A stretch of 64,000 bases of DNA from Eutreptiella sp. 'Long Island Sound 2002'. Lineage: Eukaryota > Euglenozoa > Euglenophyceae > Eutreptiales > Eutreptiaceae. A program made the translations under genes and the position numbers. The notes under the pieces are model-generated. The model saw only the letters and a program-made list of their open reading frames with translations, searched no databases and was not told the origin of the DNA. This document shows positions 15,164 to 42,469 of this stretch, piece after piece (the stretch's first letter is position 1; each line of letters starts with the position of its first letter). The stretch is from assembly GCA_964036045.1 (NCBI GenBank), contig OZ038382.1:4069789-4133788 (forward strand), written 5' to 3'.

Positions 15164-17222
15164 GCCTGCCGTCTGCAGCACCAGTGCCTCCCCCTGCTGT
15201 GGCCCGGGAGGGGGTGTACCACGCCCGCATCCCAGATGCGGGTGCGCCCGCGGAGTGTGCTGTGCCACGGGTGGGGTGCATCGCGCTGCGGCCCTTGTAT
15301 GCTTTCCGCGATCTGCGCCGGGCCGTGGTGGTGGACGAAGCTCTCCCCGCCGTCCGCCAGCAGCGCCGCCGCGACGACGTATAGCTGCTCTGCCGTGAGG
15401 GGTGCCGTCGGCGCGTGCGTTGCGGCCGGCTGGCGGGGCTGCGTGTTGCGGCAGGGGTAGTGGGGCAGCAGTTGCGCCGGCCACGGCGCCACGGGACCCA
15501 TGGTGACGGCCGCGACCGCGGACGCCAGCACCGTGCGGTCCGCTGGTCTGTACTGCCTGAGCCCCGTGGTATCTCGGGCGAGGTGCCTGCAGGCCGCCGT
15601 CCAGGCCACCACTCCGAAGTTCGTGACGTCCGGTTCGGCACCATCCGCGCCATCGCTTCCCCTTTGTTGTACCGTGGTGGTGGTGTCGAGCGGGGGGCCC
15701 TGCTGCAGCGCCTCCGGGCCCTGCCCCGGCAAGAGGGCGGGCAGGACTGGCTGCGGGAAGCTCTGCGCGCCTCGGCGCTCCGGGTGCGTGTGGTACGGGT
15801 TTTGCCAGCGGTGCTCCGGGGCCGCCGGTGGTAGCAAGAGGAGTTGGTGTAGGTACCAGTGGCCTTGCGCGGCGGACAGGTTGCGGAGCGTTAGCTACTG
15901 TTCCACCAAGCCTCCCGGGTGCGCGGCCTCCACGCGGCGCTGCAAACCCAGGCGGCCCAGGCGGTTGGACGTGCCCGCGCGTGGGATGTGGGTCTGCGGG
16001 TAAAGCACGCGCAGCGGCTCCAGCGCCAGGTCTAGCACCTCGTCGTTGAGCTGCTCCGTGAGAGCCGACGCCCTGTGCAGGGCGTGTCGGACCCCGGCTG
16101 TGGGGACCGTGAGCTGTTCTAGCACCGGCCCCGGCGGGTACCGTGCACCCGGGTTCGTTGGCCACTCCCTGGTGTGGCTCAGTATGGCCCTCCATACATC
16201 CCTCGTAGAGGCGTGTTGGGGGGCCAAAGAGGGGACCTTCCGTAGGAGGCGGTGGCACGCCGGCGGCAATCGCATGGGCTGTGGGGCGGCCACGGTGATC
16301 CACCTGCACGCCGTGCCGGGCACGATCGCCCCCCATTCCACGGTCCTCATGCCCTCGGCGTGGAGTAGCGCCTGGCCCTGGACCAGAGGGAAATAGGGGC
16401 TCGAGCGCCCGTCTCCTTCCCTCCACCGTACCCAGGCCGCCCCCGCCTGCAGGCTGCGGAGCAGGGCCACGCCGGGGAGGAGTGGCTGCGGGAAACCCCC
16501 TTGACAGCTTGAGTGCTGTGGGCCAGGGTGCCCATGGGCAAATACCACAACGGGAGGACCCAGGGGCCCGGCAGCGGTTGCGCCTCCCCTGCGTCCCATC
16601 GCCACTCGGAGTCTGGCGGGGCGGCCGGGACCGTGCCAGTGTGCAGGAAGTGGCGTGCCCTCTTGTCGGGGTGCCGTTGGAGGGTTGCCGCGAGGCTGAG
16701 ACCCTCTGCCGCGGGTGCCACTGGGAGGCCGCCCCGGGGCCTGCGCCAGGGGTAATCCTGGTCGGCCGGCCAGGTGTGGAGGTCCCGGGCGATTTCCTCC
16801 CCGGTCCCTGTGGGGGCGTCTTCCGGTGCTAGGTGCCACATGACGGCGAGCACCGCCCACGTGGAGAAGGGCCACGCCCGTGGGGGGTTGTACACCTGGA
16901 TGGTCCACTGTGGGCGCGCCCGCCGCTCACGGGATGCGTGGAGCACCCCTTGGACCATGTCCGCCGCCAGGACGGGCACCATACCCGAGGGCTCCACAAT
17001 GATCCCCTCTGCAGGTCCGCCGTGGCGGCCCCGGTTGTGCAAGGCCACTGCCGCCTGTCCCGCGTGGGTGACTCGGTCGACGGCCTCCTGGATGTTCACG
17101 CTGCCGCGTGCGGTCTCATCCAGGATCCAGCCCTGCGCCACCTCGTAGCGTAGGGCGGCGCATGCGGCCGCGGGTCTCACCTCGGGCAGCGCTCCGTCAT
17201 CGGGGCCGGGCTGAGGGTGCTG
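15164..17222 (-). pseudogene. LINE A N-terminal region, frameshifted
   Basis: Continues the CCCH-finger ORF of 42,107-42,385 (joined sequence QHPQPGPDDGALPEVRP). The frame from 17,222 reads sensibly to the CCCCC run at 16,496-16,500. There the protein jumps to the frame holding GGFPQPLLPGVALLRSL and onward, then passes a TAG at 15,895-15,897. Near 15.2 kb the best frame changes again, and a TAA occurs at 15,161-15,163. I see no named domain. It is Trp- and Pro-rich, with an even residue mix that supports former coding. It is probably an ORF1-like or N-terminal part of a long single-ORF LINE polyprotein. Confidence 0.65.
17211..17222. repeat. left copy of the 12-bp target site duplication of LINE B
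   Basis: CTGAGGGTGCTG, identical to 42,107-42,118. On the minus strand it encodes Q-H-P-Q of the LINE A ORF. Bases outside and inside the two copies differ, so the duplication is exactly 12 bp. Confidence 0.9.
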
Positions 17223-17399
17223 CTAAGAAAACGACGCACCGCCAGCAAAGATAAAGCGAAAAATCTTTTTTCCCGACCTCAGAAACCCCCCAAAAACTTT
17301 TACGCCGCTGTTTGGCGAGGTCGCAAAATTTAGGACACTCACAAAACAAAGACGAACAATAGAGTCGCGACGGCGAAGAACCTGAGCGTTGCATGCTCC

Positions 17400-17620
17400 A
17401 AAACACCTAGCAAAGTGCGTGTCCTAGGCGCTAGGGACTTGTGCGCGCTCCACAAACAAAGAAGAAGAAAAGAGGCGAACACCAAAAACCAGCAAGCCAC
17501 GACGACGAAGACAAGAACAAAGCGAGCGCCGAGCCACCTAGCAAAGTGCGTGCCATAGGAGCTAGGCGACATGTGCGCGTCAAAAAAAAAAAAAAAGAGA
17601 GAAGGAAACGCAACAAAAAG
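17400..17620 (+). repeat. ~130-bp duplicated unit in the LINE B leader
   Basis: CACCTAGCAAAGTGCGTG occurs near 17,405 and again near 17,535, each followed by a related GCTAGG...TGTGCGCG stretch and an A-rich run. These are two diverged copies of a ~130-bp unit. Confidence 0.65.
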
Positions 17621-17685
17621 AGAAACACCAAACCACAAACAAAAAAGACGCGACCACGGACCACGGGAAAACGAGGTATGACAAC

Positions 17686-18460
17686 CAAGTATGTTACGGC
17701 CCCATGCGTCATACATATCGTATCCACCGCTACACATACGTGGATGAGAAAACCAAGTATGTTGCGAAGGAGGGCGCCCAAGGGACAACACCGCACGCAA
17801 AAAAAAAAAAAAGAACGACGAACCGCCACGCACGTCAAAAGGCACGCCCGCAAACACAAACCACAACCATATATCCCCCATATTTCTTCCTCCATAGGCC
17901 CCGATCGCCGCGAGAAAAAAAAAAAAAATCCACAAAAGCGCAAAAGGTATCGGGCAGCCACGGACAAAGGGGAAACAATGAAAAGGCGAACAAGCGAACG
18001 TTCACCAACCACGAGGAAACAACGGTATGGCGAGCAAGTATGTTAACAATAAGAGGGAGGGCGCCAAAGGGACGGACCACGCACACACGCACACACATAA
18101 ACAAGACCGCAAGGAGCGAGAAGACGGAGACAAGAGCAAGGAAAAACAAGGTATGAACCCCACACCGCCCCGCCCGCAAACACACACACGCTCTCGCTAT
18201 AGGGAATGACCACGTACCACGGGGAAACAAAGGTATGGAGGTATGACGAACAAGTATGTTAAAAATGCGAGGGAAGGCGCCAAGGGGACGAAAACACAAA
18301 CGCACACAAAGCCGCAAGATGCACGAGGACGGAGACGAGACAAAGGAAAGTCATGGTATGCAACCCCACCCCCGCCCCACCCACAAACAAACACACGCTT
18401 TCTCTATAGGGGACGGCAACAAGAAGCGGCACAAGGTACAACAAGTATGTTGAAAAAAGA
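17686..18460 (+). repeat. degenerate tandem repeat with CAAGTATGTT core
   Basis: CAAGTATGTT occurs at 17,686, 17,753, 18,035, 18,251 and 18,442. Several copies are followed by GAGGGAGGGCGCCAAAGGGAC-like sequence and preceded by CCACGGGGAAACAAAGGTATG-like sequence. Poly-A runs lie between copies. Spacing varies (67-282 bp). No credible ORF; it is part of the LINE B 5' region. Confidence 0.7.
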
Positions 18461-18959
18461 AAATAAAAACGAAACCGCCTTCCACGCTCTTTCTATAGGG
18501 GAAACGCAATGCGCAGAGGTATGTTATCGAAGACGCAGCGAGAAAGAAAAAAAAAACAAGAGGGAGGAGACACAAACCACAACACGCAAAAAAAAAAAAA
18601 AAAAAAAAGGACCTGCGCACGCTCTTTCTCAACACGGGAAGAAAACATGATGGGACGAAAGGACAGGTACGTGCTACGCATCACACATGCCACGCATCTC
18701 TGCTACGCATCTACAGGACCTCTTCTTCTGCCTTTTGAAACATGCCGACGACCGACGACGAGAACCAGCCAAGGTATGACACACCCCACCCCACCAACCA
18801 CACACCGCGAGCACACACAAGCGCACGCACGACAGCCACACCGAGCGCGACCCCCCCCCCCCCCACGCCACCCACACCAACACGAAGGGCCACACAGCGC
18901 ACACACACACACCAGCGCCAAGGGGAAGGGCACCCGGAAGACACACCCACCGCACCACC

Positions 18960-20790
18960 ACACCACACCACCACCGGCAGCGAAACCCAGCCAGGAGTGG
19001 CGGGGAGTAGCACACAGGAACCTCCGCCAGGAGTGGCGAGGGACCAACCACACCAGCCACAAACCCACCACACACGCCACCGCCGCACGCCACACGCCGC
19101 ACACCACACACCGCACACCACGCACCACCGCCGACAGCGAAACCCAGCCAGGAGTGGCGGGGAACCGCGCCCGGGACCCTCCGCCAGGAGTGGCGAGGAA
19201 CGCCCACCACCGCCGGCAGCGAAACCCAGCCAGGAGTGGCGGGGAGTAGCACACAGGAACCTCCGCCGGGAGTGGCGAGGAACCGACCACACCACACACC
19301 AGCCGCAACCCCACCAGCACACCACCACCGCACACCACACACCACACACCACACACCACACACCACACACCACACACCACACACCACCGCCGCCAGCGGA
19401 CCCCAGCCGGGAGAGGCGGGGGACCACACACCACCACCGGCACCGAAACCCAGCCAGGAGTGGCGGGGAGTAGCACGCAGGAACCTCCGCCAGGAGTGGC
19501 GAGGGACCGACCACGCCACACACCGCCGCCAACGGACCCCAGCCAGGAGTGGCGAGGACCGCCCACCACCACCAGCAGCGAAACCCAGCCAGGAGTGGCG
19601 GGGAGTAGCACACAGGAACCTCCGCCAGGAGTGGCGAGGGACCAACAACCAACACACCACCGCCACACACCACAAACCACCGCCGCCAGCGGACCCCAGC
19701 CAGGAGTGGCGGGGACCGCCCACCACCACCGGCAGCGAAACCCAGCCAGGAGTGGCGGGGAGTAGCACACAGGAACCTCCGCCAGGAGTGGCGAGGGACC
19801 AACCACACCACACACCACCCACAACCCCGCCAACACACCACCGCCGCACACCACACACCACACACCACGCACCACCACCGCCAGCAGGCCCCAGCCAGGA
19901 GTGGCGGGAAACCGCACACCACCACCGGCAGCGAAACCCAGCCAGGAGTGGCGGGGAGTAGCACACAGGAAACTCCGCCAGGGGTGGCGAGGGACAAACC
20001 ACACCACACACCAACCACAACCCCACCACACACCGCCGCCGCCAGCGAACCCCAGCCAGGAGTGGCGGGAAACCGCGCCCAGGGCCCTCAGCCAGGAGTG
20101 GCGAGGACCGCCCGTCGCCACCGGCATCGAAACCCAGCCAGGAGTGGCGGGGAGTAGAACACAGGAACCTCCGCCAGGAGTGGCGAGGGACCAACCACAG
20201 CCACAACCCCACCAACACACCACCGCCGCACACCACACACCACACACCACACACCACGCGCCACGCACCACCGCCGCCAGCAGGCCCCAGCCAGGAGTGG
20301 CGGGGAACCGCACACCACCACAGGCAGCGAAACCCAGCCAGGAGTGGCGGGGAGTAGCACACAGGAACCTCCGCCAGGAGTGGCGAGGGACCAAACACAC
20401 CACACACCAGCCACAACCCCACCACACACCACCGCCGCCCGGAGACCTCAGCCAGGAGTGGCGAGGACCGCCCACCACCACCGGCAGCGAAACCCAACCA
20501 GGAGTGGCGGGGAGTAGCACACGGGAACCTCTGCCAGGAGTGGCGAGGGACCAACCGCACCACACACCAGCCACAACCCCACCAACACACCGCCACCGCT
20601 CACCACACACCACACACCACACACCACACACCACACGCCACTGCCGGCGGCGGAACCCCAGCCAGGAGTGGCGGGGAGCCGCACAACACCACAGGCAGCG
20701 AAACCCAGCCAGGAGTGGCGGGGAGTAGCACACAGGAACCTCCGCCAGGAGTGGCGAGGGACCAACCACACCACACACCCGCCACAACCC
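18960..20790 (+). repeat. tandem array of palindromic GCCAGGAGTGGC units
   Basis: Ten or so copies of a ~64-bp composite: CAGCGAAACCCAGCCAGGAG, then TGGCGGGGAGTAGCACACAG, then CCGCCAGGAGTGGCGAGG. They are separated by CA-rich spacers of varying length. Each composite holds two short inverted repeats (GCCA-GGAG-TGGC, extended to CGCCA-GGAG-TGGCG). Copies start near 18,978, 19,136, 19,218, 19,448, 19,577, 19,733, 19,930, 20,128, 20,330, 20,484 and 20,697. Long ORFs on both strands here are products of the repeats. The array lies in the LINE B 5' untranslated region. Confidence 0.85.
19325..19384 (+). repeat. CACCACA heptamer tandem repeat
   Basis: A run of the 7-bp unit CACCACA inside a spacer of the palindrome array. 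Shorter runs recur near 19,850, 20,230 and 20,600. Confidence 0.75.
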
Positions 20791-21059
20791 CACCAACACA
20801 CCACCACCACACACCACACACCACAAACCACGCACCACACACCAACACAGACACCACGCGCGCACGCACCGCGCCACAAACACACACACCGGCGGCGAAC
20901 CACGACCAGAGGAGGGGGCGACACGCCCGCAAGCAACACAGCCAGGAACAGCGAACACCCCCCCCCCCCACCACCACCACCCCACCCCGGAGAGACGGGA
21001 CACCAACCACCGCAAACCGCACAGCGAAAAGGGGGGCGGGACGAAAAGGGCCCACGGGG

Positions 21060-21460
21060 GGCGCAGGCGAGGGACCCAACCTCAGGGGTTTGGGGGCCCC
21101 CCCGGTGACCGTATCGGCCCCACCTGAGCACACGCAATAAGGTGGGATACGCCCGGGACCGTTGGTCAGCGGCCCGCGGTGGCACCGGCCTGGGGGGGTG
21201 ACCAACGGGCCTGACCAAGAGCACTCCCCACGGCACGTACTGCGGTTCGGGCCCAGCGAGGGGCTGCGGGTAGGGCACACCGTCCATCGGGGCAGGCAAG
21301 AGACGCGCCTGTCCCGCAAGGACTCCCCAGCGACCCACAGTGTACCCGACCCCGGTGTGGGGAACGGCTGGAGTACCTGGCTACGGAACAGGTCCATGGA
21401 CGGCATCCGTACAACAGAGTTACACCCTGACGGGGAGTGCAAGCACCGGCCCCCCCACGG
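21060..21460 (+). other. more complex, structured segment of the LINE B 5' region
   Basis: About 400 bp with higher sequence complexity than the surrounding CA-rich repeats. It contains a perfect 10-bp inverted repeat, CCGTTGGTCA (21,159-21,168) and TGACCAACGG (21,199-21,208), around a GC-rich loop. No ORF with a recognisable product was found. It could be a conserved RNA structure or promoter. Confidence 0.45.
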
Positions 21461-22509
21461 GGAAACACCAGGGGAAGGGACCCGAGCCGGCGACAAGGAC
21501 CCCCCCCCACACACCACAGCCGGGAAGGCCCGGGCACGACACCGCCCCAAGCGACACGGAAAAGAGACAGAAGGAGGAGGGCACGCAAAGGGGACAGCAA
21601 GGGGACGCACCACCAACAGACCCCAGCCAAGGGGGGCGGGGAACCACACAGCCGAGACAGGGGGGGGGGCACGACACACAGCCCCCACACCAAACAGGGC
21701 CGCCAAACCACGCCCGCAAAGGCGAGGGCAGGCGCCCAAACGCACCACCAACACACCGCACACACGCCCGAGCGTGCACACAACACACACACCCACAACC
21801 GCCACCGACACGAGCCCCACAAGCGCACACCACACACCAAAGAGCAGGCGCCGCCCGCACCACACACGCAACACACACAAACCCAAACAACAGGAACCCA
21901 GCAACCCCCCCCCGCCAGGGGGGCTGCAGGGCCGCCAGAAGCCGCTAGGACGCAAAGGAGGACCCACCAAGCCCGCAGCCAGGAGTGGCGAACGGCCACA
22001 CCCAGTAACACCCGAACGGCCACGCCCAACACCAGGACCGGGCACTACGACACCCACACCAGCACCGCCACCAACGCCCAAACCGGACGCCACGACACCC
22101 TCACCAGCGGACACACCCGAAACCAGCGGAAGCACCATCGGCAACACCAGCGACCCCAGCACCCACCCAAACACTAGGACAAGGGACACCCTCACCAACA
22201 ACAAACCAACACAAAAAGCCACCCAACACTGACCAGCCGATCCGGTCCCCCACCGGCTCGCACCCAGAACCACCGCCACCGGCATCCACGCCGTCGGAAA
22301 CACCAACACCGCCAAAAATCAAGCCAGCACAACACCCTCACAACACCGTCACCGCCGGCACCAACGCCTACGACACCTACGCATGCCACCGCCGGTTCCA
22401 GCACCTACATCACCCAAGCCAACGGCATCAAGAACACCATCGCCGGCAACACCCCACCATCAGCGTCGCCACCAGCAACCTCTGCCACCGGAGGACACCG
22501 AAACCACCA

Positions 22510-24450
22510 CAGCCGGTGAGCCAACAAACCACCAAGCCCCGGCCAGGGGAAGCGAGGGCACGCGCCCGGAACCACCATGCAATCCCCGGCGACACCCACA
22601 CCACCGGCGCCGCCAACACCACCCTCACCCACGACACCACCCGGAGCAACACCTACGCCACCTACACCAACAGCAGCACCAGCAGACCACACCACCTACT
22701 GCACACCCCCCCAGACAGAGCCACAGAAACCGACCACCGCCCTGAACGCAAGCCGCTGACCACCCACACACAGACCCACGCCAACCACCACCAGCATCAG
22801 CAGCGTCCGAGACGCCGAGAACCATAGCGACGCCCACAACGACCTCACCACCGGCATCACCGACACCGACACCGGCAGTACGGCCCCAGCACCGACAAAC
22901 CAGAGCGTCAACGGCAATCGCCACGGCAACACCGCCCGGTACGACACCATCGGCATCAACAACACCAAGGGAGCCAACACACAGGCCAGCGACACCCATG
23001 GGTACCTCCACCAGGAGTGGCGAGGTCCCACCCCCGCCGTCAGAACACCACCATCCACCAGGGCAACACCCGCAGCGCCCACATCGGCCACAGCTCCACC
23101 GGCGGCGCCCTCGCCAGCACCGTCACAAACACCGCGACGGCCGGCCACGAGTGGCACGCCCGGAACCGCCGACCACCCAAACACAGGCCGCGCCCAGCAC
23201 CAACACCAACAACGCCCACGCCAACAGACCACCACAACACACGCCAACCACCAAGTAACACATAAGGCACCCTCGCCTTCGGCAACACCAACGCCACCAA
23301 CACCCACGGCACTATCCACACCACCACCAACCCCACCAACGACGGGCCGAGGTGCCGTCACCTACAACGCCCCCAACACCACGACCACGGCCCCGCCACC
23401 TAGGGCAACCCCACCAACGGCGTCACCAAGGACGCCAGCACGGCTGGCGAACGAACGCCACCGAGCCCTCAGCCAGGAGAGGCGAACGCCCACACCCAGC
23501 AACACCCGAACGGCCACGCCCAGACCCAGGGCCAGGAACTGCGACACCCACACCTGCACCGCCGCCAACACCCAAACCGAACACCACAACACCCTCACCA
23601 ACGGGGACGCCCGGAACCAACAACGGACCAACACAAGAAACCACCCAGCGGCCAAGTTACACCCAAGGCGTTCCAACCGCGCCACCCACCGGCCCGCACC
23701 CAGAACCACCACCAGCACCAGCAGCAGCCACTGACAACCCACACACAGACCCACACCAACCACCAGCAGCATCAACAACATCAGAGACACCGTGAACCAT
23801 AGCAGCGCCCGCAACGACCTCACCACCGGCACCACCGACGGCGCCACCGGCAGTGCGACCTCACCGACAGCAACCCGGAGCATCCCCCATCCCGCATCCC
23901 GGTGAGACACCATCGGCAGCAAGGACACCGAGGGGGCCAAGGCCAACCCACCAGCCAACGACGCACGTGGGAACCTCCGCCAGGAGTGGCGAGGTCCCCC
24001 CTCCGCCGTCAGAACACCGCCAGGGCAGCACCTACAACACCCTACAACGCCAACACACACAGCTCCCCTGGCAGCACCCCCACCAACGCCAACACCGACA
24101 CCACCGACAGCGGCAACACGGCGACACCACCACCCAACCGCAGCAAGGTCACCCTAAACAGCAACCGCAGCAACACCTGTCACTACGGACCCACGGACAG
24201 CCGACACCACCAGGACCACAGACCGGCCAAACACCAGCCACGAATGGCACGCCCGGAACCACCGAACACCAGCACACAGGCCACCGGACCACCGCGAGAC
24301 ACACCACCGCCAACCCCACCAACGACGAACCGAGGTACCGTCACCCACAACACCCCTAACACCACCACCACGACCCCGGCACAGAGTAACACCTAGGGCG
24401 CCCCCATCGACGACACCACCAAGGACGCCACCACGGCTGGCGAACAAACG
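22510..24450 (+). repeat. ~970-bp direct duplication of CA-rich sequence
   Basis: Matching landmarks recur ~970-1,000 bp apart. The ACCCACACACAGACCCACGCC region near 22,765 matches ~23,735; CGCCGTCAGAACACC near 23,035 matches ~24,003; GGCACGCCCGGAACC near 23,155 matches ~24,246; CCACCAACGACG near 23,333 matches ~24,317. A further copy of the 21,978-22,140 segment lies at 23,478-23,640. The copies are diverged. The sequence is dominated by ACC/CAC triplets; no gene is supported. Confidence 0.65.
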
Positions 24451-25740: not shown

Positions 25741-25799
25741 GCACGCGTCGCCCACCCTATCGTACACCGCTCCGCAACACGCCCCCCCCCGCTTCCCCT

Positions 25800-26054
25800 G
25801 ACAGGGCGTGCGCTCCAGCCCACTGCTGGGAAGACGACTTCGACATCCTCCCGGCCATCCGACACCTACTGGCAGCCACGGCCCCGCGCCCACAAGCCCA
25901 CCAGCAACCCACGGAACCGCAAGAGCCCGACCACCCCATGCCACCACGCTCCATATCCCCCGCGTCCACCGCAGACCGGAACGCGGAACACCGGCGAGAG
26001 GAGCCCGACCCCGGCCGCGCCGCCACGCCCCCACCGCCCCCCCCCCCAAAAAAA
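25800..26054 (+). pseudogene. possible out-of-frame N-terminal extension of LINE B ORF1
   Basis: A protein-like frame (CAPAHCWEDDFDILPAIRHL, later the ATG at 25,938 opening MPPRSISPAS) runs up to a homopolymer C then A run at about 26,037-26,054. Beyond the run, the ORF1 frame reads NIYATLASTLAP directly into its ATG at 26,089. A single-base change in the run would fuse the two. This may be a real frameshift in the copy, a sequencing error, or coincidence. Confidence 0.35.
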
Positions 26055-26088
26055 CATCTACGCCACGCTGGCCAGCACCCTAGCCCCC

Positions 26089-30918: not shown

Positions 30919-31044
30919 ATAGCCCAAATCAGGGCGGACCTGCAGCGGTGGCACATCCACAGGCAACAGCGCATCGCCCAGGAACACGAACGGTATGCGC
31001 AACACGAACTCCCCTACAAGGACATCCGCCACCTCAACGACGCC

Positions 31045-34000
31045 ATGACCGATACCGGCCACCGCACCATCACCACGGTCCGGCAGGAGGACGGCTCCCT
31101 CACCAACGACCCAGCCACAGTGCTCCAAGCCACCCAAGACAGCTTCCTCCGGCAACACACCCCCACCCAAGACACACTGGACCCGGACACCGAGGCCAAA
31201 ATCGACCGCCTCCCTCGGGTCTTCAACCACGCCCAGAGGAGGCACCTGGAAAAACGCCCCTTCACCATCCTCGAAGTCCGGAAGGCCATCCACAGTCTCC
31301 GGCAACACAAAACCCCAGGCTACGACGGCCTCCCTGCAGAGGCATACTACCACCTCCCCGCCCACCTCCTCCGCGTCCTCGTCCACCGCCTCTGGGACAT
31401 CGTCACGGGGCGGACCCCCCTGCCACCAGACTGGGCAAACGTTGTCCGCCCCCTCTACAAAAAAGGGGACTGGGCGAACCCGGACAACTGGCGCCCCATA
31501 GTCTGTGCGGTCACGGAGGTCAAAATTGTCTGGACCATCCTCCTGCGCCGCATCCGCCCCCACCTGGACCCCCACATACCAGCGAGCCTCTGGGGGGCCA
31601 TCCCAGGCCGCTCCCCACACGAGGCCATCTTCCTCCAGGACACCATCGCGGACATGGACCCGGTGGACCTCATCATCGCCTCCCTCGACGTCAAGGGAGC
31701 CTTCCCGAACACCCCCTGGCTCCTTCTAGAAGCGGTGTGGAAACGCCTAGGCCTCCCCTTCTACAACTTCACCTCCGACTACATCCGCACCCGCAAATAC
31801 ACGGTCCGCACAGGAGCAGGCCTCACCCCCTTCCTGGAGCCAGGCAGCGGGGTCCCCCAAGGGGGAGCAGAGGGCCCCTTCCTGTACCTCCTAGTGACGC
31901 TCCCCCTGGCCCTCGCAATCGAGCAGGATTACCCGGCCTACGCACCCTACCCCCTCCTCTCCCCCCTGGTCGGCTTCGCGGACGACACCAACCTCACCGT
32001 CGCGCACACCCCACACGACCCCCATGCCCCAGACCCCGGACCAACGGTCACCCAACAGGCCAACGACTTACTGGACGTGACCGTCTCCTACCTCTCCCAC
32101 AACAACCTCATCGTCCACCCCACAAAGTCAGTGGCCATGATCAAGGGGTCTGCCACACCTCCCACCCTGGGGCCACAAGGGCTCCCCATGCAAGTCGTGA
32201 CGACCACCACCCACCTGGGGGTAGTCCAGGCCGCCAACCCTGAGGACGCCACCCTCCCTCCCAAGTTGCAGTCACACCTCGCCCATCTCCCCAGATATGC
32301 GTCCCCGACCACCAAGGCCCTCTCCCTGTCCCACCAGAGCCTGGCGTACTACCTCACCGGGGTCTTGAACGCCTCCATAGGCTTCCAAGCACTCCACCTA
32401 ACACACCCCACCACCGCCCTCGAGCCGGCCACACGCGCCGTGACCAAGGCATGGGCAGCACACGGGGGCTGGCCCACCTCCATACCCACCCGCGCCATCC
32501 GAGCGGCATGGCCCCACTATGGAGACGCCATAGGGGACGAGGTGAAAGCGGCCTATACCAGACACACCGCCCTCCTCCTTCACCGCATGACCCACAACCA
32601 CTCACCGGAGGTCCGCGAGGTCACCGCCATCCGCCTCCAAGCCGCACAACGGTCCCGCAACACATGCCCGCGCTGGGTACTCCACCAGACGGGCATGCCC
32701 ACCAACATGAACACCCGCCAGTGGAACCACCTGCAGCTTCTGCTCCCATCCCCACACCACGCCATACTCACCAACCACACGTGCCCAGAGAAAGGGCCAC
32801 TAGCGGTCCTCTGCGGGGACCTCCACCACCACCCCAAGGGCACCATCCACACCATAGACCTTGTCGGGGCCTCCATCACCGTAGTATACGTCACCCTCGC
32901 CCAAATGCGGGTCCTGCACCACAGCGGGGCACACCACACCCCCTTTCTACAGCTTCCCGAATGGCCACAATACCGCCTCTTCCACCAGTACCTCACACAG
33001 ACGGCACGAACAGCGGGACACACTCTACCGGGCAGCAAAGACATGCGCACAGCCTACCGAGAATTCACAAAGCAACACCCCCGACCCATCCCAGAGACAC
33101 CGCCCTACGCACCCACCGGATCGAAACACGAACCCGTCCCCCCAGTAACGGGCCCAGTCCCACCACTAACCCTGCTACTGGCCCCGAATGAAGCCAAACC
33201 CACGCAGACCACCGTCATCCACCACGGGGCAAAATGGCGCATACCGAAACACCACATGACCGCCCGAGACCTACCAAAGGTCCCTCAAGATTCCCAGAGC
33301 ATGCCACGCACATGTTGGGCCTGTGACCCCGAGGCACCAACCGCACCATGGCCCGTGCTACACCTCATAGCACGCCACCACACCCACCCCACGACCCACC
33401 TACCACCACAGGCCTACGCATGGATAGCCCCATGGTTCCACCGCACCGACACTAACCCCACGGTAGCATGGAACCCCGACCACGCGCCCAAATGGCTCTT
33501 CACCACTACACCCACATGCCCCCGCCCCGACCCGGCAGGGGTCGCCATCCGTTACAGCATGTACGAGCCAGGCAGAACGGGCAAGCACGAGCACCCCTAC
33601 TATCCACTCCACCACTCCTGCCACACACCGGAGCACCGAACACAAACCCTCACATGCCACAACCTAAACCCCGACACAGCCTACATCCTCCACTACATCT
33701 ACTCCTACCTCACACAAGGACAGCCGGAGCAGGGACTCATAGCCCTGTCCCCCCAAGCGAAGCACATCATCTCCAAAGGAATAGGGGTGTACGCCACCCC
33801 CATCCTACAGCCCACAACCCCAGTAGCCCACCTCGCCACGGGCCTTGCCATATACGCCTACCTGCCCATGAACCCATGCCGCCTCCCACAACCATCACCG
33901 GCGGACCGGCTCTTCTTCACCGACGCCTCAGGCGAATCCGCCCTCACGCCCATCACCGGGGGGGCCACCCTGCAGCTAACCCACAGGGGGGGACACTACC

Positions 34001-35166
34001 ACATGGACCACCACACGGGCCACACCACCTATGGGGCCTCTTCCCACGGGGAGCTAGGGGCCATGGCCGACGCCATCACCGAGGTCGCGGCCCACCTACC
34101 CGCCCACTCCCCGCACATCGTTCGGGTCTGGTTCGTGGTAGACGCCACTGTCGACACGCACCTGCTCCTCCGCATAGCAAGGCAACCTCTTCACAAAGCA
34201 ACCGCGACGAGCCTCGGCACCCAGGCACTGCTACTCTGGAAAGCCCTACGCAGCCTTCCCCCCTACGTCCAACTCCACATCGTGAAACAAGAGTCCCACA
34301 GGCACCAATACAAAAAAGGTAAGGTCGACAACCAGGCAGTACACCAGCGCACAACACACCTACCAGCCCTCCAGATCCCTGACCTCGGCCGCAACCACAC
34401 ACACCTCCAACACGTGCCCCCTGTACCCGAGCCCCATCAGACCCCGGACTGGGTACCAGAGGACGCCCCCTATTCCTCCCACGACAGAGCGTACCACTAC
34501 CCCAACCCCGTCCAACATCTCGCCCGCGTGCTCGGCGACGCAGACAGCCGGGCGCACATCCAGGAGCTCCAGGACAGACTGCAAGTCCCCCTCTACCACT
34601 CAGCGCTCCGCCCAGCAAACGTCCCAGCCCACCTCCAGAAACGACGCATCCAGCTCCTCAGGGAGCAACTGCCTTTCCTCACCAGGGTCGCCAGATGGCT
34701 CGCCCGCAAGCACATCCACGTCCCCGACGAACACACCCGTTGCCCATGCGACCACACCACCCCGGAGGACTGGGAACACTTCAAGAAATGCCCCCTCCAT
34801 ACAGACAGGGACACCCTAGTGGGCTGGTCCCCGGCGGAAACCCTGCGACAACACGAAGGATGGCCAGCCCACAGCCACGCACACCAGGCCACCGAACACC
34901 TCTTCCGGGACCCCCTGATCAAAGAAGCCACCATGAGAGGGGCAGTGACACAGGCCCTGCACCGACACCTCACCAAACACACGGAAAGCCCCATGGAGGC
35001 AGCAGCACACCTCCAGCTAGAAGCGGTCCGCAGAGCAGCGGCCCAAATGGTACACCGCAAACACCTCCTGCTAACACACGCGGAACAACTCACCGACCCC
35101 ACCGCCAGGGAACACATGCAGCGTCTCATCCATTACCATGCCGTGCATGACCCAGACGTCCACTAA
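31045..35166 (+). CDS. LINE B reverse transcriptase-RNase H, 1,373 aa
   Basis: Intact ORF in the same frame as the endonuclease; sensible sequence also fills 30,919-31,044. RT motifs: DNWRPIVCAVTEVK, motif A LIIASLDVKGAFPNTPW, GVPQGGAEGPFLYLL, and motif C GFADDTNLTV (31,975-31,989). RNase H lies at residues ~955-1,100 with FTDASGESAL, SHGELGAMAD, FVVDATVD and GKVDNQAVHQ, giving the D-E-D-D set. Near the C-terminus, RCPCDHTTPEDWEHFKKCPL (residues ~1,230-1,250) is the Cys/His motif seen in many LINEs. All catalytic residues are present. The end overlaps the protease ORF by 29 bp. Confidence 0.9.
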   Translation: MTDTGHRTITTVRQEDGSLTNDPATVLQATQDSFLRQHTPTQDTLDPDTEAKIDRLPRVFNHAQRRHLEKRPFTILEVRKAIHSLRQHKTPGYDGLPAEAYYHLPAHLLRVLVHRLWDIVTGRTPLPPDWANVVRPLYKKGDWANPDNWRPIVCAVTEVKIVWTILLRRIRPHLDPHIPASLWGAIPGRSPHEAIFLQDTIADMDPVDLIIASLDVKGAFPNTPWLLLEAVWKRLGLPFYNFTSDYIRTRKYTVRTGAGLTPFLEPGSGVPQGGAEGPFLYLLVTLPLALAIEQDYPAYAPYPLLSPLVGFADDTNLTVAHTPHDPHAPDPGPTVTQQANDLLDVTVSYLSHNNLIVHPTKSVAMIKGSATPPTLGPQGLPMQVVTTTTHLGVVQAANPEDATLPPKLQSHLAHLPRYASPTTKALSLSHQSLAYYLTGVLNASIGFQALHLTHPTTALEPATRAVTKAWAAHGGWPTSIPTRAIRAAWPHYGDAIGDEVKAAYTRHTALLLHRMTHNHSPEVREVTAIRLQAAQRSRNTCPRWVLHQTGMPTNMNTRQWNHLQLLLPSPHHAILTNHTCPEKGPLAVLCGDLHHHPKGTIHTIDLVGASITVVYVTLAQMRVLHHSGAHHTPFLQLPEWPQYRLFHQYLTQTARTAGHTLPGSKDMRTAYREFTKQHPRPIPETPPYAPTGSKHEPVPPVTGPVPPLTLLLAPNEAKPTQTTVIHHGAKWRIPKHHMTARDLPKVPQDSQSMPRTCWACDPEAPTAPWPVLHLIARHHTHPTTHLPPQAYAWIAPWFHRTDTNPTVAWNPDHAPKWLFTTTPTCPRPDPAGVAIRYSMYEPGRTGKHEHPYYPLHHSCHTPEHRTQTLTCHNLNPDTAYILHYIYSYLTQGQPEQGLIALSPQAKHIISKGIGVYATPILQPTTPVAHLATGLAIYAYLPMNPCRLPQPSPADRLFFTDASGESALTPITGGATLQLTHRGGHYHMDHHTGHTTYGASSHGELGAMADAITEVAAHLPAHSPHIVRVWFVVDATVDTHLLLRIARQPLHKATATSLGTQALLLWKALRSLPPYVQLHIVKQESHRHQYKKGKVDNQAVHQRTTHLPALQIPDLGRNHTHLQHVPPVPEPHQTPDWVPEDAPYSSHDRAYHYPNPVQHLARVLGDADSRAHIQELQDRLQVPLYHSALRPANVPAHLQKRRIQLLREQLPFLTRVARWLARKHIHVPDEHTRCPCDHTTPEDWEHFKKCPLHTDRDTLVGWSPAETLRQHEGWPAHSHAHQATEHLFRDPLIKEATMRGAVTQALHRHLTKHTESPMEAAAHLQLEAVRRAAAQMVHRKHLLLTHAEQLTDPTAREHMQRLIHYHAVHDPDVH

Positions 35167-36406
35167 CCCGCTCCGCGCCCCGCACGCGCCCCCCGTCTCC
35201 ATCCACAGGTCTCCAAGGCACCACCACAGCGCCCCGAGACCCGTCTCGCACCCAAGAAGCCACCCGGCACCGCCCAGTCCGGCCGAACCCAGCGAGGGCC
35301 AACCATCCATCGACGTAGACGCGCAAGACCCCGGCAGCCCATCCAGCCCACCCCCCCCGGACCCGGGGCACCCCCCCCTCACACCGGCCACCATCCGCGA
35401 CCCCGACCTCCTCCGAGCGACCCTCCAAGACAGGGCCCCGACCACCTCCCTGGGCTGGTACCGCCTACAAGAGGACTGGACCAAGCTCACCGTCAAAGCC
35501 CTCCGGGACCTGACCACCCCAGGCAGCGGCCTCCACGAGACCATAGTAGACCTTGTGCTCTGGCGAGCCCGCAAACACACCCGGGGCCAGCCCATCTGGA
35601 TCCCCCCCATCGAGTGGGGCCAGGCCCTGACGCACCACACCGGCAGCAACGTCACGCGTCGAGGGACCGTACGCCTACGGCGGGCCCAAGCGGAGACGGA
35701 CCACCCAGCGGACCCGAACCACCCGGAGCAGTGGGAACAGGCCACCGCGCCCAACCGCGACACCGCCCTCCGCGCCGCCGGCCTCCGCACCCCGGACGAC
35801 GACCTCCCCCCCCCACCTACAGACAGTGACCACCCCCCGCCGGAGGTCTGGGTTACAGTCCTCGAGCGTGGCCACTACTACGTGTTAGCCGCTATGGCTA
35901 CGTCCCACGGCCCGCAATGGATCATCCAGGGGACAGACACCATGTTCGCCCCGGAGACCGCCCCACCAGGGGCAGTGGGGGACCCCACCACCCAGCACAG
36001 GATCCTCAGGGGTCTCCTCCAGCCAGGGGACACGCCCCCAGCCCGCGCCCTGGCCCAAATCACCTCAGGGAAGGCGGGCTACCACCTGGGATTGTCCATG
36101 CTCTGCCTAACCCACTGGATCCAGCGCAACTGGCCACCCACGGGGACCGTGCCCTGGGTTTGGGCCATCCCCACCGCCCACACACAAGTCGAAGCAGGCC
36201 CGGACACACGACCAAACCCCCCCCCCAGGCCGCAGCAGTCCCTCACCTGCGGGTACCACGCCATCCACAGGGTCCTCAACCGCGCGGGTCTTAGCCCAAA
36301 GCTAGCATGCCCCCTTCCCACCACTGACCAAGAGGTCCGCCAGATACGAACGCTCGTCTGCGAAATCCTTGCCGCAGCAGCAGAAGACGGCAAGCTTCTC
36401 CTCTGA
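35138..36406 (+). CDS. Ulp1/C48-like cysteine protease ORF, 422 aa
   Basis: Starts at ATG 35,138 inside the end of the RT ORF, shifted by one base; a second ATG is at 35,147. The first ~80 residues are Pro/Ser-rich. The rest has the layout of a papain-fold SUMO-type protease: His246 in ERGHYYVLAAM, Asp267 in IIQGTDTMF, and Cys371 in PQQSLTCGYHAIHRVLN, with Gln just before the Cys as oxyanion residue. The His-Asp gap (21) fits the family; the Asp-Cys gap (104) is longer than in yeast Ulp1. Cysteine protease domains occur in a few LINE families. It may process the polyprotein or act on host ubiquitin-like tags. The overlap suggests stop-reinitiation. Confidence 0.6.
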   Translation: MPCMTQTSTNPLRAPHAPPVSIHRSPRHHHSAPRPVSHPRSHPAPPSPAEPSEGQPSIDVDAQDPGSPSSPPPPDPGHPPLTPATIRDPDLLRATLQDRAPTTSLGWYRLQEDWTKLTVKALRDLTTPGSGLHETIVDLVLWRARKHTRGQPIWIPPIEWGQALTHHTGSNVTRRGTVRLRRAQAETDHPADPNHPEQWEQATAPNRDTALRAAGLRTPDDDLPPPPTDSDHPPPEVWVTVLERGHYYVLAAMATSHGPQWIIQGTDTMFAPETAPPGAVGDPTTQHRILRGLLQPGDTPPARALAQITSGKAGYHLGLSMLCLTHWIQRNWPPTGTVPWVWAIPTAHTQVEAGPDTRPNPPPRPQQSLTCGYHAIHRVLNRAGLSPKLACPLPTTDQEVRQIRTLVCEILAAAAEDGKLLL

Positions 36407-38218
36407 ATCGCCCGGCCTACAACTGCCCACGCAAGCGCGCAGCAAGCGGACACATACACCGGCACAGCACAACCCCCCGCAAAATCCCCGCCCATGCCCC
36501 CCCCCTCTCGCTGCTCAACCGGAGACCCACACACGCCCACTATCGCGCGCACCCCCGGGCCCCGCGACACGGGCCTCCCCCACCCGCCCGAACACTAGCA
36601 CACGCCCGCCACACACCCACCCACCGGCCACCCTTCACCGCCCCCCACACTCGACAACCCACACACACCCACCAAGGGGAGCCCCACGCCCCGCGGCACG
36701 CCCACCCCACCCAGTGGCCCGCCCACGCCCCCCACACACACCCCAGAGGACCCAGGCCCACCCCCCCCGGCCCCTGAATGCAGCCCACGCGAACTGTTCC
36801 CCCCCGCTGACACCAACCCACACGACCTCGCACATTGCAGGACCCGGGCCCAGCCGAGCCCAGAAAGAGAAGGCCGCAGCCCCGCGCCTCCCTCTCCCGC
36901 CGCAGCCGACCAGATCGGCCCGCCGGGCCGCCAGGTCACGACCGGGCCCCCCCAGCCGCCCGCCCCCAACCTACAACCCGGGGACATGCCCTCCATCCTC
37001 CCCGCCGTGGCCGCAGCAGAAGCCGCCGCCCGCAAGCCCGCCCGCATCACAGCCCAACCCGCGTCCACCACCTCCTCCTCGTCCTCAGCCTCGTTCACCT
37101 CCTCCACCTCATCCTCCGACCCCCCCCTCCCCGCCAAACTGATCCTCAAGGCCACGGCGAAAGCCAAAGCCGCGGCCGCACGCATCAACCCCCCAACCCC
37201 CACACAGGCGACTCAGGCACCCCGGCAACCCACCGGGACGACCCCCGACCCGGCATCGACGCCCTCACACCTCCGGACAGAGGTACTCCTCAACCTGGAA
37301 CCGGACCCCAACCCCAAACCCGACCCCAAACCCGAACCGGACCCCAACCCCAAACCCAACCCCAAACCCAAGCCGGCGCCCACGCGACCACACACAACAC
37401 CGCATACGCAACGACACAAAACCACCCGATACCACCCCCGCCCGGGCCCTCGCCCAAGCCAGGACCCCCCACCCACCACGACCCGCGCCCCCCTCCCGCC
37501 AGCACCCACCACCACCGCGGAGACGGCCACCCAGCACGACCCCGTCCAAACCCTCGTCAAAATCCCCGTCACCAAACGCCCTGTCATCCATCCCCCACAA
37601 ACCACCACCACCGCCGGCCAAACCGACCCAGGGACGTGGGACCCCTCAACCATCGTCACCGTCAAGCCCGGCCCCCAACCCTTCCCCGAAGCCCACCACA
37701 TAGTGCAGCCCCGGGGACTGCCAACGATGCCCAACCCCCCACCCCCACAAGGGGGACCGGAAAACCCACAAGGACTCCATGGGCCATACCCGCAACACCA
37801 ACCCCACCACTACACACACCACCACCACCAGCGGCCCCACCACCACCACTACCAACACCACCCCCACCACTACCACTGCCCACCGCCCTACCCCACCGGG
37901 CCACAACCCCCCGTACACCAACAGCACCAGCGGACGGGATGGCAGCCGCCGAACGCCCCGCCCGCATACCCACCCACCCCGTACCAGCCACCACCCCCGT
38001 ACCAGCCGTACCCCCGCGGCCACCATCCGATGGCCGAAGGGGCCCCATGGACGACGGGGGACCTCCCCCCCCAACCAGCACCGCGTGACGCCCCGTACCC
38101 CCCCGGCCACCATCCGATGGCCGAAGGGGCCCCAAGGACGACGGGGGACCTCCCCCCCATAGCGGGGCCGCGCGAGGCCCCCCAGAGGCCGCCGACGCTT
38201 CCGGATTGGCGCGACTAG
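36407..38218 (+). CDS. proline-rich ORF after the protease (ATG at 36,986)
   Basis: The protease frame continues past its TGA with another stop (TAG near 36,597), then stays open from before ATG 36,986 to TAG 38,216 (410 aa). Sequence is low complexity: an Ala/Ser segment, PNPKPDPKPEPDPNPKP repeats, a His-rich HHYTHHHHQRPHHHHY stretch, and two copies of RGHHPMAEGAPWTTGDLPP-like units (about 38,017-38,075 and 38,101-38,160). The exact repeat and sustained frame hint at real coding, but composition bias alone can keep frames open. No function can be assigned. Confidence 0.45.
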
Positions 38219-39241
38219 AGCGACGAGGGCCGGTCCCGCAAGCGGCGGCGCTCCCGCTCCCCCCCCGCACGGCACACTCGCCCACGGCGCCCAAACTCCC
38301 ACCGCGCCTCAACCACCCACTCGCGCCGCTCCCGCTCCCCCAGGTACCACCACGACCCCCAGGGACCCCGCTCCCGTCGCTCCCGCTCCCCCGGGCACCA
38401 CCACGAGCGCCACCGCCGCCCCATGTCCCCCTCCCCCTCCCCCCACCGGCCACCCAGCCCCCGCCACCACCACTCCCGCTCCCCCCGACGCAGCCAGGCA
38501 CGCCACTGCCGCCCCACGTCCACCTCCCCCTCCCCCCACTAGCCCCGCCGGGCTCCCCGTTCCCCCCGCCACCCGTACCCATCCACCACCCCCAGCCCCC
38601 GCCACCACCACTCCCGCTCCCCCGGACGCCACCGAGCGCGCCACCGCCGCCCCATGTCCACCTCCCCCTCCCGCTCCCCCCTCCGCCCGTACCCGTCCTC
38701 CACCCCCAGCCCCCGCCGCCGCCGCTCCCGCTCCCCCAGGCACCGCCACCCCCGCCACCACCGCAGGTCCACGTCTTCCCCCCGCCGCTCCAGGACCCCA
38801 GGCACGGACCCCTCCCCCCCCCGGGCCCCCGCCTACCTCGCCTGGTGGTCTCCCCCCGCTCTGCAGGAGCTCCGCCGCTGGGTGAAATGGGCCGGAGGAG
38901 CGGGAAGGCACGAAGGGGTGCACATGGTGCATACCTTCGAGGAGGTGCGCACCCGCACCCCCGCAAACCCCAACGAGGCCGCCCCGGAGGCCATCATGCC
39001 GCAAGCGGCATGGGAGGCCCTCCTCCGCGATGCGGTCCAGGGCCTCCGCCCCCCCTACACCCCCCAAGCCCTCCGCCAGTGGCTCCAGGCCACCCAGCCC
39101 CAAGCCTGGGCCACCGGCGCCCCCTCCCCACCCCGCCCCTCCCACCAACACCACACCAGGAAGGGGCAGGACAAGGGCAAGGGAAGGGCAAGGGGCACCA
39201 AGGACCACACAGGCAAGAGGGCACGGAAGGGCCCCAAGTGA
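38219..39241 (+). CDS. RS-repeat (Arg/Ser-rich) ORF continuing the proline-rich frame
   Basis: The same frame continues beyond TAG 38,216 with dense Arg-Ser dipeptides (RSRKRRRSRSP, RRSRSPGHHHERHRR), interrupted by TAG 38,540-38,542. From ATG 38,654 it is open to 39,241 (195 aa). After the RS repeats comes a non-repetitive part (LAWWSPPALQELRRWVKWAG, then ALRQWLQATQPQAWATG) and a Lys/Arg/Gly tail. RS domains mediate RNA and splicing-factor contacts. The repeats (RHHHSRSP-type units) recur at ~120-140 bp. It may be a C-terminal element protein or a gene picked up by it. Confidence 0.45.
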
Positions 39242-39763
39242 GGGCAGGCACACGCAGGGACAGGGCGCCGGAAGCGACACCACATGGGGGCAGGACACCA
39301 CCCAAGAACCAGGAAGGAGCGGGAACGGGGACCAAGACACGGAGGAAAAGGGCACCACGACAGGTACCACGACCCACACCGACGGGGAGACCAGCGCCGC
39401 CCCACCCCCACCAAACAGCCCAACACACACCACCGAAGCAAACATCGGACGCCATGCGGATCACACCAGCGCACGCCCACCGGCCACCGGAAACCACACA
39501 GAGAACGGAGGGCACACCTACACGGGGAGAACGGGCCACACCCACAGAGGAGGCAGCAGGGAACACCGCCGCACGGCACACCACCATGCCCTCACCGCCA
39601 GCCGACGACCCCGACCACCACGAAGGCCAACTCACAGGCACCGAAAGAGGACGAAAGCACGGCCGCGGCACCCACGACTACGTACCGACACCCACAGAGG
39701 ACACGGGACCAAGGCACAGGCCCCCAGGGAGGGCAACCCCACGGACCGTCACGCGACCACACC
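39242..39763 (+). other. no gene seen
   Basis: About 520 bp, purine- and CA-rich, between the RS ORF and the gene-like remnant. Frames are open by composition but show no recognisable domain. Confidence 0.4.
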
Positions 39764-40391
39764 ATGGGCTATAAGGGCCAGGCTGCGCTACCGTCGCGGT
39801 TTGACACAGAGTATTGCTACGGGGGCTTGATCTCGGCTGGTCCCACGTCCGTGAGGGCGTCCGTCACCAACCTGTTGCGTCCAGTGGAGGAATGGCACTG
39901 CGGCGGCACACCGATCCCGTCCATGATGAATATCGAGCACCGCAAGGGGAAGCGAAAGGCTGTGATCGATCGCGAAGGCTTTGGTGCTGCTGGTCGGTGC
40001 CCCCTTCAAGGCCATCTCCGAGCGCCGTGAAGACTGGAAGTGCCAAGAATACTACCGATGCCCCGGACCCCAGCAGTTCAGCACCGGAGATATGGACATC
40101 CCCCTGACCCTACAGTATGAGCTCATCCCTGCCGGCGGCACCGACCCGGACCCTGCCAGCGCAGCCGAGCTGCAGTGAAAGCCGTTCGCCACTCAAACAG
40201 CGTTCGGAAGCCACCTCCACCAACCGACTCCTGATGTCTGTTTGTCTGCCTTGGAGAAGGAACGCCTTTCCTACACCCCGAGTACACCTGCCTGTCTGCG
40301 AGGCCCGGTGAAGATTGAGTCCATGGGTGAGAGTCAGTGTGCACGCCCCAAGGACACCGTGATCATTCAGCAGAATTTCCCGAAGACCTAA
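39764..40391 (+). pseudogene. gene-like remnant, ~207 codons, one frameshift and one TGA
   Basis: From ATG 39,764 the frame reads GYKGQAALPSRFDTEYCYGG, with normal base composition unlike the CA-rich surroundings. Near 39,980 the sensible reading moves by one base into LLVGAPFKAISERREDWKCQ. It passes TGA 40,176-40,178 and continues in frame (KPFATQTAFGSHLHQPTPD) to TAA 40,389-40,391. Residue mix and sharp ends suggest a once-real protein. I do not recognise the family. It may be a host transcript captured in the LINE B 3' region, an older insertion, or a domain of LINE B. Confidence 0.5.
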
Positions 40392-41560
40392 CCGACCCAC
40401 ACAGGCCAGGCTGACCTCCACTGACCCACCGCGGCACCACGCGAGACCACGGCACACCGCACCACAGCGCGCCACAGAGCAACGCACCACAGCACGACGC
40501 GACGCGACGCGGCACAGAGCGGCACAACACGACACAACTGAACCTAACCTGAGGGACTAACCGAAGCCAGCCACCGCACACCCGAGAGGGCGCCGCGCCA
40601 CCACGCCACACACCAGCACCACAGGCCACACACGGGGCCACAGCGCGCCAGGCGACAACGGTGACGGACCACCCAGAAGATTACAACCGGCACCGCAGAG
40701 GGGTAAGGACACGAGCAACCCCAGCCCCCTAACCCAAAACCACAAGCAGCCGCCTGGCGCAGCCGCCCAGCCGGCAGAGCCAGGACCTAACCCAGCAAGA
40801 AGGGGCGCCGAGCCCACCGTGTACAGAGCCCACCCGACCCACGGGGCCGGAACATGGCCACACAGAACGCAACTGAAGACAGCAGCCCGGAAGACAACAC
40901 TGAATACAGGCCAGTGCGTGCGCCAGCCCAGGGAAGGCAGAGGGAGGAACAGGCAAGCCCCCCCCAAAAAAAACAAAAAAAAAGGAGGGGGGAAGGGGAA
41001 AAGGCACGAAAACAGCCCACAGCCGCCCAACCACCCGCCAACACCACCACAGGCGGCCAGGCCCCCCCCCCAGGAAAAAAAAAAAAAAAAAAAAAAGGGG
41101 GACCCCCGCAGAGGCACAGGGGAACCACCCACCGAAAACCGGCAACACCAAGCCAGTAACAGCGGACCACGGGGAAAAGGGACACGGAAAAAAAAAAAAA
41201 AAAGAGAGCCACCAGCCCAGCCCGAAAGAAAGGGGATGGAGGGACAGGGACCACAAAGCCCAGAAAAAAAAAAAAAAAAGAAAAGAAAAAACCAAAGCGC
41301 AAAAAAAAAAAACACACCCCGACAACCCAGCCAAGACGGACTGGGCCCAGGCGAGACCCGGGCCCAGCACACACGCCCACACCGCGCGCCGGAACCGGAA
41401 ACGGCGGGGGGCAAACGGGGCGCCCACTAAAACCACACACGTCCCAAAAGCAGACCGAAACCGAAGCCCAACCACGAACACCACAAATAGCAGACACTAG
41501 AGGGACAACACCACAAATCGAGCCCAAAAACACCCACCCAAGACCCCAGCCAGGACTGAC
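40392..41560 (+). repeat. low-complexity LINE B 3' region with long A runs
   Basis: CA- and A/G-rich DNA with A runs of roughly 11-22 bases near 41,075, 41,190, 41,265 and 41,300. Apparent Lys-rich (plus) and Phe-rich (minus) ORFs are run artefacts. No gene supported. Confidence 0.6.
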
Positions 41561-42088
41561 GGGGTTAACAAAACCCGCACCCAACCGCCAACCGCACCCA
41601 AACACAAACACCACACAACAGTAGGAAACCCAGTGCCCACAGCCCGGGCACTGAGGCAGCCCGTGCCATGCAGGTGACCCGGCCAAACGAGATCCGGAGC
41701 CCGGGGGTAAGGCTGCATCCTAATGCCTGCGCTGCTTTGGGACTCGAGGCGGAGCGTGCGACACCCAAGCGCCTCGGAACCCTACTACCAGGAACGTGCA
41801 TGCACGCCTTGGGAACGGGATACGCCAGGAAGTCCTGTGAACCCCTAGGGTTCCGCCCAAAGGAGGGGACGTGCGCAAGCACGGGGGCACACCCTCCCGG
41901 CGAGACAAGCATGTCACGCTGGCGGCGATCAGCCCTCCCGGCGTAGCCCGGGGTCGCTTTGTTGGGGGCCAACAGTCAGGTCTAGCGGGAAGTAAGCCGC
42001 CTCCCCTCTTCACGCGCGAAGCCTCTTCCTGTTCGTCACAGGGGCGACGCCAGGGGGAACCATGGGGCGCCTCTCCACGACCGAGTGC

Positions 42089-42106
42089 ACCTACCTACCT
42101 ACCTAC
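42089..42106 (+). repeat. (CTAC)n terminal tail of LINE B
   Basis: Four and a half tetranucleotide units end the element and directly abut the 12-bp duplication. Short tandem-repeat tails are usual at the 3' end of several LINE clades that lack poly-A. Confidence 0.75.
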
Positions 42107-42118
42107 CTGAGGGTGCTG
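42107..42118. repeat. right copy of the 12-bp target site duplication of LINE B
   Basis: CTGAGGGTGCTG, identical to 17,211-17,222. It directly follows the (CTAC)n tail of LINE B and precedes the CCCH-finger codons of LINE A on the minus strand. Confidence 0.9.
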
Positions 42119-42385: not shown

Positions 42386-42469
42386 TGTTGTGTCGCTGTG
42401 CCTAAGAGCAGGGGGTGGGGTGCGGATGTCCCGTGGCTGGTGCGTTGGTGCGTTGGTGCATTGCTCGTT

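Follow-up and report, generated by a model that had tools for sequence, protein, structure and literature searches.

A probable 25-kb LINE insertion in Eutreptiella with an in-frame UGA-CGG and a predicted hairpin between ORF1 and ORF2

Organization of the locus

The window analysed here is a 64,000-nucleotide (nt) stretch from Eutreptiella sp. 'Long Island Sound 2002' (assembly GCA_964036045.1, contig OZ038382.1, positions 4,069,789 to 4,133,788 of the forward strand). Its main subject is LINE B, a long interspersed nuclear element (LINE) read on the plus strand at 17223–42106 (24,884 bp). It lies within open reading frame 1 (ORF1) of LINE A, itself a LINE with an endonuclease and a reverse transcriptase (RT). 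In window positions, the features of LINE B and its edges are as follows.

17211–17222, no strand assigned: left copy of the 12-bp target site duplication CTGAGGGTGCTG (exact match)
17223–26088, plus: 8.9-kb leader with tandem repeats and ORFs no longer than in shuffles (periodicity and shuffles)
18964–20859, plus: tandem array in the leader, holding 28 of the 31 copies of CCAGGAGTGGCG in the window (repeat analysis)
26089–29817, plus: ORF1, 1,242 amino acids (aa); closest relatives are database proteins P0076–P0079 at 91–94%, one of them a cluster of 509 members
29815–29820, plus: UGA-CGG that joins ORF1 to ORF2 in frame, candidate site of readthrough (TGACGG read in the sequence)
29818–35166, plus: ORF2, with endonuclease, RT, probable RNase H and a presumed C-terminal CCHC (Pfam and motifs)
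29819–29864, plus: RNA stem-loop of 15 bp predicted immediately 3' of the UGA (folding of one sequence)
29881–30561, plus: apurinic/apyrimidinic endonuclease (APE)-type endonuclease domain (Pfam Exo_endo_phos over 30079–30510; motifs from 29881)
31462–32142, plus: RT domain, FADD present (Pfam RVT_1)
33820–34392, plus: probable RNase H domain (D-E-D motifs; predicted RNase H-like fold)
34741–34797, plus: C-terminal motif that we take to be of CCHC type (motif search)
35138–36406, plus: ORF3, overlapping the ORF2 end in another frame, with an in-frame ATG at 35138 or 35147 (longer than in shuffles)
36407–42090, plus: 3' region of ~5.7 kb, where ORF length gives no support for coding (periodicity and shuffles)
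42091–42106, plus: (CTAC)4 3' tail of LINE B (run search)
42107–42118, no strand assigned: right copy of the 12-bp duplication CTGAGGGTGCTG (exact match)

Edges of the probable insertion and unbroken copies of its target

CTGAGGGTGCTG occurs twice in the window, both strands considered, and the two sites are the two edges of 17223–42106. The (CTAC)4 tail directly adjoins the right copy; elsewhere in the window, both strands included, no run reaches three CTAC units, and the same search found no second (CTAC)n tail inside the segment. An exact shared 12-mer arose in 299 of 200,000 trials with 60-bp windows drawn at random on the left (8.1–17.0 kb) and right (42.3–47.0 kb), a figure that does not include the added demand that the repeat adjoin a LINE tail. 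In terms of long terminal repeats (LTRs), none of 11 self-comparison rows links the two ends of the segment (rows within the two tandem arrays excluded).

Base composition also changes at both edges. In 250-bp bins, the AT skew on the left rises from –0.11 in the bin at 17001 to +0.40 in that at 17251 and then to +0.62; on the right, from the bin at 41751 on, it falls from +0.22 through –0.22 to –0.53. The GC skew switches less cleanly in the same bins. Every 2-kb bin wholly within LINE B is richer in A than in T and in C than in G, and the LINE A flanks on both sides have T over A and G over C. The interrupted element comprises the following parts.

11182–11913, minus: LINE A RT (within 11182–13650)
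13018–13650, minus: LINE A endonuclease (within 11182–13650)
16350–17222, minus: downstream part of LINE A ORF1 (upstream part at 42119–42853)
42472–47437, minus: LINE A 5' tandem array of ~5 kb, in 212/419-bp units, upstream of LINE A ORF1 (repeat analysis)

Omission of 17223–42118 yields an uninterrupted 536-aa LINE A frame on the minus strand, reading WCPK-QHPQ-PGPDD at the join. Translated, the 12 bp give QHPQ, with which a CCCH-like motif of LINE A closes (C-x7-C-x5-C-x3-H in our own reading). With residues 150–450 of the joined frame as a database query, 234 proteins were matched, 120 of which were listed. All of the listed proteins except P0203 (119 of 120) span the join from –10 to +18 residues, and 116 are gapless there; the gapped relatives are P0151 (one residue, 13 past the join), P0179 (frame lost at the join and beyond) and P0194 (8 residues missing immediately after QHPQP). 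QHPQ is present once in 74 of the 120, absent from 46 and doubled in none. Since LINE A copies are unbroken at this point and QHPQ is never doubled among these 120 proteins, the 12 bp belong to the target.

The duplication, the tail, the AT skew flip at both edges and the unbroken LINE A copies thus make a single insertion the most likely history, and we hold with high confidence that 17223–42106 is one target-primed LINE insertion with a 12-bp duplication. The original prediction, made from the letters of the window, had described an exact 12-bp duplication around a segment ending in (CTAC)n, whose removal with one repeat copy restores the LINE A frame through Q-H-P-Q into P-G-P-D-D, and had read the whole as one LINE insertion several times the usual size. 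Each of these points is borne out, and the empty LINE A copies that it proposed to look for are found among the listed proteins. The contrary finding that it named, a 12-bp repeat already doubled in LINE A copies free of LINE B, was sought in the 120 listed proteins and seen in none.

Further observations concern LINE A and its meetings with LINE B relatives. LINE A ends near 11050, just past its RT domain, where GC drops from ~0.7 to 0.45, so its 3' end is absent or cut. Given its 5-kb array upstream of ORF1, repeat leaders are present in both LINEs of the window. In database protein P0048, the LINE A frame continues beyond the join into sequence of a sister family of LINE B, apparently from a member truncated at its 5' end (48% identity); this is the only likely case of 5' truncation, found in the sister family alone. 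In P0009, a LINE B RT is followed by antisense LINE A leader repeats; the two families meet there too, and either may have inserted into the other.

Coding parts of LINE B and their relatives

The prediction had also placed an endonuclease, an RT and an RNase H in matching orientation. The first two are confirmed on the plus strand by Pfam: Exo_endo_phos (E 8.5e-6, 26.1 bits against a cut-off of 24.5) lies upstream of RVT_1 (E 1.8e-15), and all endonuclease and RT motifs sought in ORF2 were found, among them NLLDLN at 29881, which we take to be endonuclease motif I. For the RT relative P0013, the best PDB sequence matches are LINE-1 ORF2 proteins (E 3e-4). The RNase H is upheld in part: its motifs are conserved and the predicted fold resembles that of RNase H, which make it the probable identity of the domain after the RT. 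A Foldseek search gave 559 matches at E ≤ 10 and none at E ≤ 0.001. ORF2 carries one internal TAG (30916–30918), and this copy is therefore probably defective. ORF1 matches no Pfam family at its cut-off; its C-terminal part (~29455–29590) looks by eye like what we presume to be a Tudor/SH3-like module, where Pfam supports no module.

The RT query returned 72 matches, the last 17 of them distant (24–28%) and the best a cluster of 758 members at 98%. The ORF1 query returned 11, in clusters of 509, 46, 35 and 6 members and seven of 1. Cluster sizes are the database's own figures; judged by these counts, ORF1 and ORF2 are high-copy. Relatives also tie neighbouring parts together: P0054 holds the ORF1 end, the endonuclease and the stretch to ~31.3 kb in one frame, P0050 extends past the ORF2 stop to 35.72 kb, and P0085 stretches upstream as far as 24.83 kb (55%), in part over low-complexity sequence. 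P0023 was dropped as evidence of linkage past the ORF2 stop, its tail matching many low-complexity places. A relative at 51%, P0018, lies on a 3.3-kb JGI contig; related LINEs therefore exist in other sequenced material.

The ORF1–ORF2 junction

ORF1 ends in CCC-UGA-CGG-GGC, and ORF2 continues in the same frame. Type II readthrough is characterized by UGA followed by CGG or CUA, in many cases with a stem-loop ~6–12 nt further on (PMC3542737; PMC11166343). The RNA from the stop (29815–29900, 86 nt) folds at –36.9 kcal/mol with a z of –3.46, matched by 1 of 200 shuffles, this being the best of four cuts. Among 70-nt windows over ORF1–ORF2, 4 of 1,362 fold at least as well as the junction window, one being the junction hairpin and three belonging to one other site near 27.35 kb; for the element as a whole the count is 14 of 3,545.

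In addition, in-frame ATGs stand at 29122 and 29953 with none between, and endonuclease motif I lies upstream of the second. Five of the 11 ORF1 matches (P0076–P0079 and P0084) have their C-terminus exactly at the UGA and five end earlier, while the eleventh, P0054, has S-R-G where LINE B has stop-R-G. Two sister-family RT matches, P0027 and P0041, cross the site, poorly aligned and uninformative. Because the UGA-CGG, the hairpin and the lack of an AUG before the first endonuclease motif match the type II signature, ORF1–ORF2 is probably a readthrough polyprotein, and we favour expression by UGA readthrough with moderate confidence.

Several features weigh against it. The three other cuts of the junction RNA give z values of –1.90, –2.03 and –1.61, and the lower stem starts 1 nt after the UGA, as against the usual 6–12, with the upper part from 29826. 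Furthermore, the relatives show the position of the stop and not its letters, and since each database protein is itself an open frame, none could display an in-frame stop.

The UGA-CGG might instead be the true end of ORF1, with ORF2 begun by reinitiation or at a non-AUG codon, which we regard as rather doubtful. The frame shared with ORF1, the absence of an AUG before 29953, the endonuclease motif upstream of that AUG, and a stop context and hairpin that fit type II readthrough all speak against a separate start. In its favour is stop–start coupling, which has been described in SART1 and suggested for L1 (PMC5972666).

Leader, 3' region and the length of the element

All 31 copies of CCAGGAGTGGCG lie on the plus strand of the leader, those outside the array being at 21979, 23011 and 23980. 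Composition, CCAGGAGTGGCG for the leader and the single edge-to-edge duplication assign both the leader and the 3' region to LINE B. With regard to the unusual extra ORFs of the original prediction, part of the claim stands. ORF3, singled out in the 3' region before its own test, was matched in length by 1 of 500 shuffles and is the only supported coding candidate among them. The ORFs at 22.7–25.8 and 36.6–39.8 kb find no support as genes, being no longer than in composition-matched shuffles of a T-poor strand: the longest plus-strand ORF of 17223–25566 (469 codons) was equalled or exceeded in 155 of 300 block shuffles, and that of 35167–42106 (561 codons) in 63 of 300.

Codon periodicity is absent from 17.2–21.7 kb and from ~39.4 kb to the end of LINE B. 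Codon-like periodicity in 21.7–25.6 kb (G 2–27) weighs the other way for the ORFs there. It recurs in parts of 36.7–39 kb, which may contain coding sequence, and peaks at 38.2 kb (G 120, the maximum of the element) amid tandem repeats of 87 and 114 bp, multiples of three that could cause the peak. ORF3 resembles a cysteine protease (Ulp1/OTU-like) by eye only; it has no Pfam or PDB sequence match, and its structure model, computed without an alignment, is unusable (pLDDT, the predicted local confidence, 36).

Internal repeats raise the alternative that a LINE of ordinary size was inserted and later grew by nested insertions or tandem duplication in the leader and 3' region, so that 24.9 kb was never one transcript; this is compatible with a LINE insertion across the edges. 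Consistent with such growth are internal duplicates (22751–23462 and 23726–24455, 72%; 21964–22125 and 23458–23619, 86%; 38006–38717 and 38093–38833, 65%) and tandem arrays with some units up to 95% alike. However, the large duplicates are 65–86% alike in DNA, whereas the RT protein is 98% like its nearest cluster, and the duplications therefore look older than this copy. A and C richness throughout the segment in 2-kb bins, the CCAGGAGTGGCG copies that link the array with 21979, 23011 and 23980, and the single (CTAC)n tail likewise argue against later growth, which we judge unlikely. A chimeric assembly, or a repeat shared by chance between two unrelated segments, is a highly improbable origin of the join. 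The sequence comes from a single assembly, but coincidence would then have to account both for LINE A copies that are unbroken at precisely this join and for a LINE tail placed precisely at the right edge.

Other features of the window

At 3–3578 on the minus strand lies the pol of an LTR element, presumably Ty3-like, with RVT_1, RT_RNaseH and a weak aspartic protease match below the cut-off. A third, degenerate RT element occupies 48381–50862 on the plus strand, with RVT_1 at ~48381–48905 below the cut-off and a clear Pfam RNase_H at ~50443–50862 in another frame. The window gave no tRNA genes and no Rfam match at the gathering score, and a six-frame Pfam scan of 54.0–63.9 kb at E 0.01 was negative. 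Searches of the collections viral_contigs and genome_contigs yielded no confirmed copy.

Discussion

Our analysis supports LINE B as one insertion, and a native family length of ~25 kb is likely. In the mechanism that we propose, a very long APE-type LINE would have inserted by target-primed reverse transcription into ORF1 of LINE A, with RT beginning on the (CTAC)n tail. Its promoter would lie in the repeat-rich leader. ORF1 would be translated, and a fraction of ribosomes, aided by the hairpin, would pass the UGA-CGG to give a polyprotein of ~3,025 codons (1,242 + stop + 1,782) bearing endonuclease, RT and RNase H; ORF3 would be translated separately. We tentatively suggest a LINE family with a ~25-kb unit and a 9-kb repeat leader, in which readthrough at a virus-like UGA-CGG and hairpin extends ORF1 by the endonuclease–RT, and which has a third gene downstream; such a family may resemble a readthrough RNA virus or a retrovirus in organisation and expression.

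Three points tell against the proposed mechanism. The 24.9 kb is the length of this one insertion, no second full-length copy having been read. No database match lies wholly in 17223–25700 or 35600–42106 (at least 50% identity over 30 columns) among proteins fetched with the other parts as queries, the leader and 3' region never having served as queries. Moreover, the RNase H region has no Pfam or PDB sequence match, sequence-profile search included.

To our knowledge, a 25-kb target-primed insertion would be far beyond the length of other LINEs, and it raises the question of how an RT copies so long an RNA without truncation. If the hundreds of database copies have a length of ~25 kb, their sum is many megabases of host genome. 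The in-frame UGA-CGG and predicted hairpin at the ORF1–ORF2 junction are new in this analysis. A literature search of open-licence PMC papers, covering long or giant LINEs, additional LINE domains and LINE readthrough, had no such element among the entries listed; for readthrough this is weak evidence, and absence from print is not shown.

The domain order and a CCHC motif are traits of RNase H-bearing LINEs, with which LINE B shares endonuclease, RT, probable RNase H, the presumed C-terminal CCHC, a target duplication and the lack of LTRs. Such LINEs include the I group (Ingi, I, Nimb, Loa, R1, Tad1, Loner, Outcast), and also plant L1, Proto1 and Dualen/RandI (PMC4640811). LINE B differs in being several times longer, in its in-frame ORF1-UGA-ORF2 arrangement and in its extra ORF3. 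Terminons are Penelope-related, Ogre and Burro are LTR elements, unlike LINE B, and none of the three is a LINE. What they have in common with LINE B is unusual length, all being retroelements called giant (PMC6431247). NeSL and Utopia LINEs carry an Ulp1-like protease, and a cysteine-protease domain is possible in ORF3 too; their protease is N-terminal and the Utopia endonuclease restriction-like, whereas ORF3 is separate and its protease only a candidate (PMC4640811).

At the junction, SART1 and other LINEs with coupled ORFs resemble LINE B as proposed here in that a signal there ties ORF2 expression to ORF1, in SART1 with a downstream RNA structure; by comparison, SART1 has an overlapping stop-restart site, and LINE B keeps the same frame with no start codon at the junction (PMC5972666). 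With the type II readthrough of RNA viruses, which often yields the polymerase as an extension, LINE B shares UGA-CGG and a predicted 3' extended stem-loop; it differs in being a LINE and in having its lower stem nearer the stop (PMC3542737). If true, the readthrough junction would equip LINEs with the retroviral means of setting the dosage of Gag relative to Gag-Pol.

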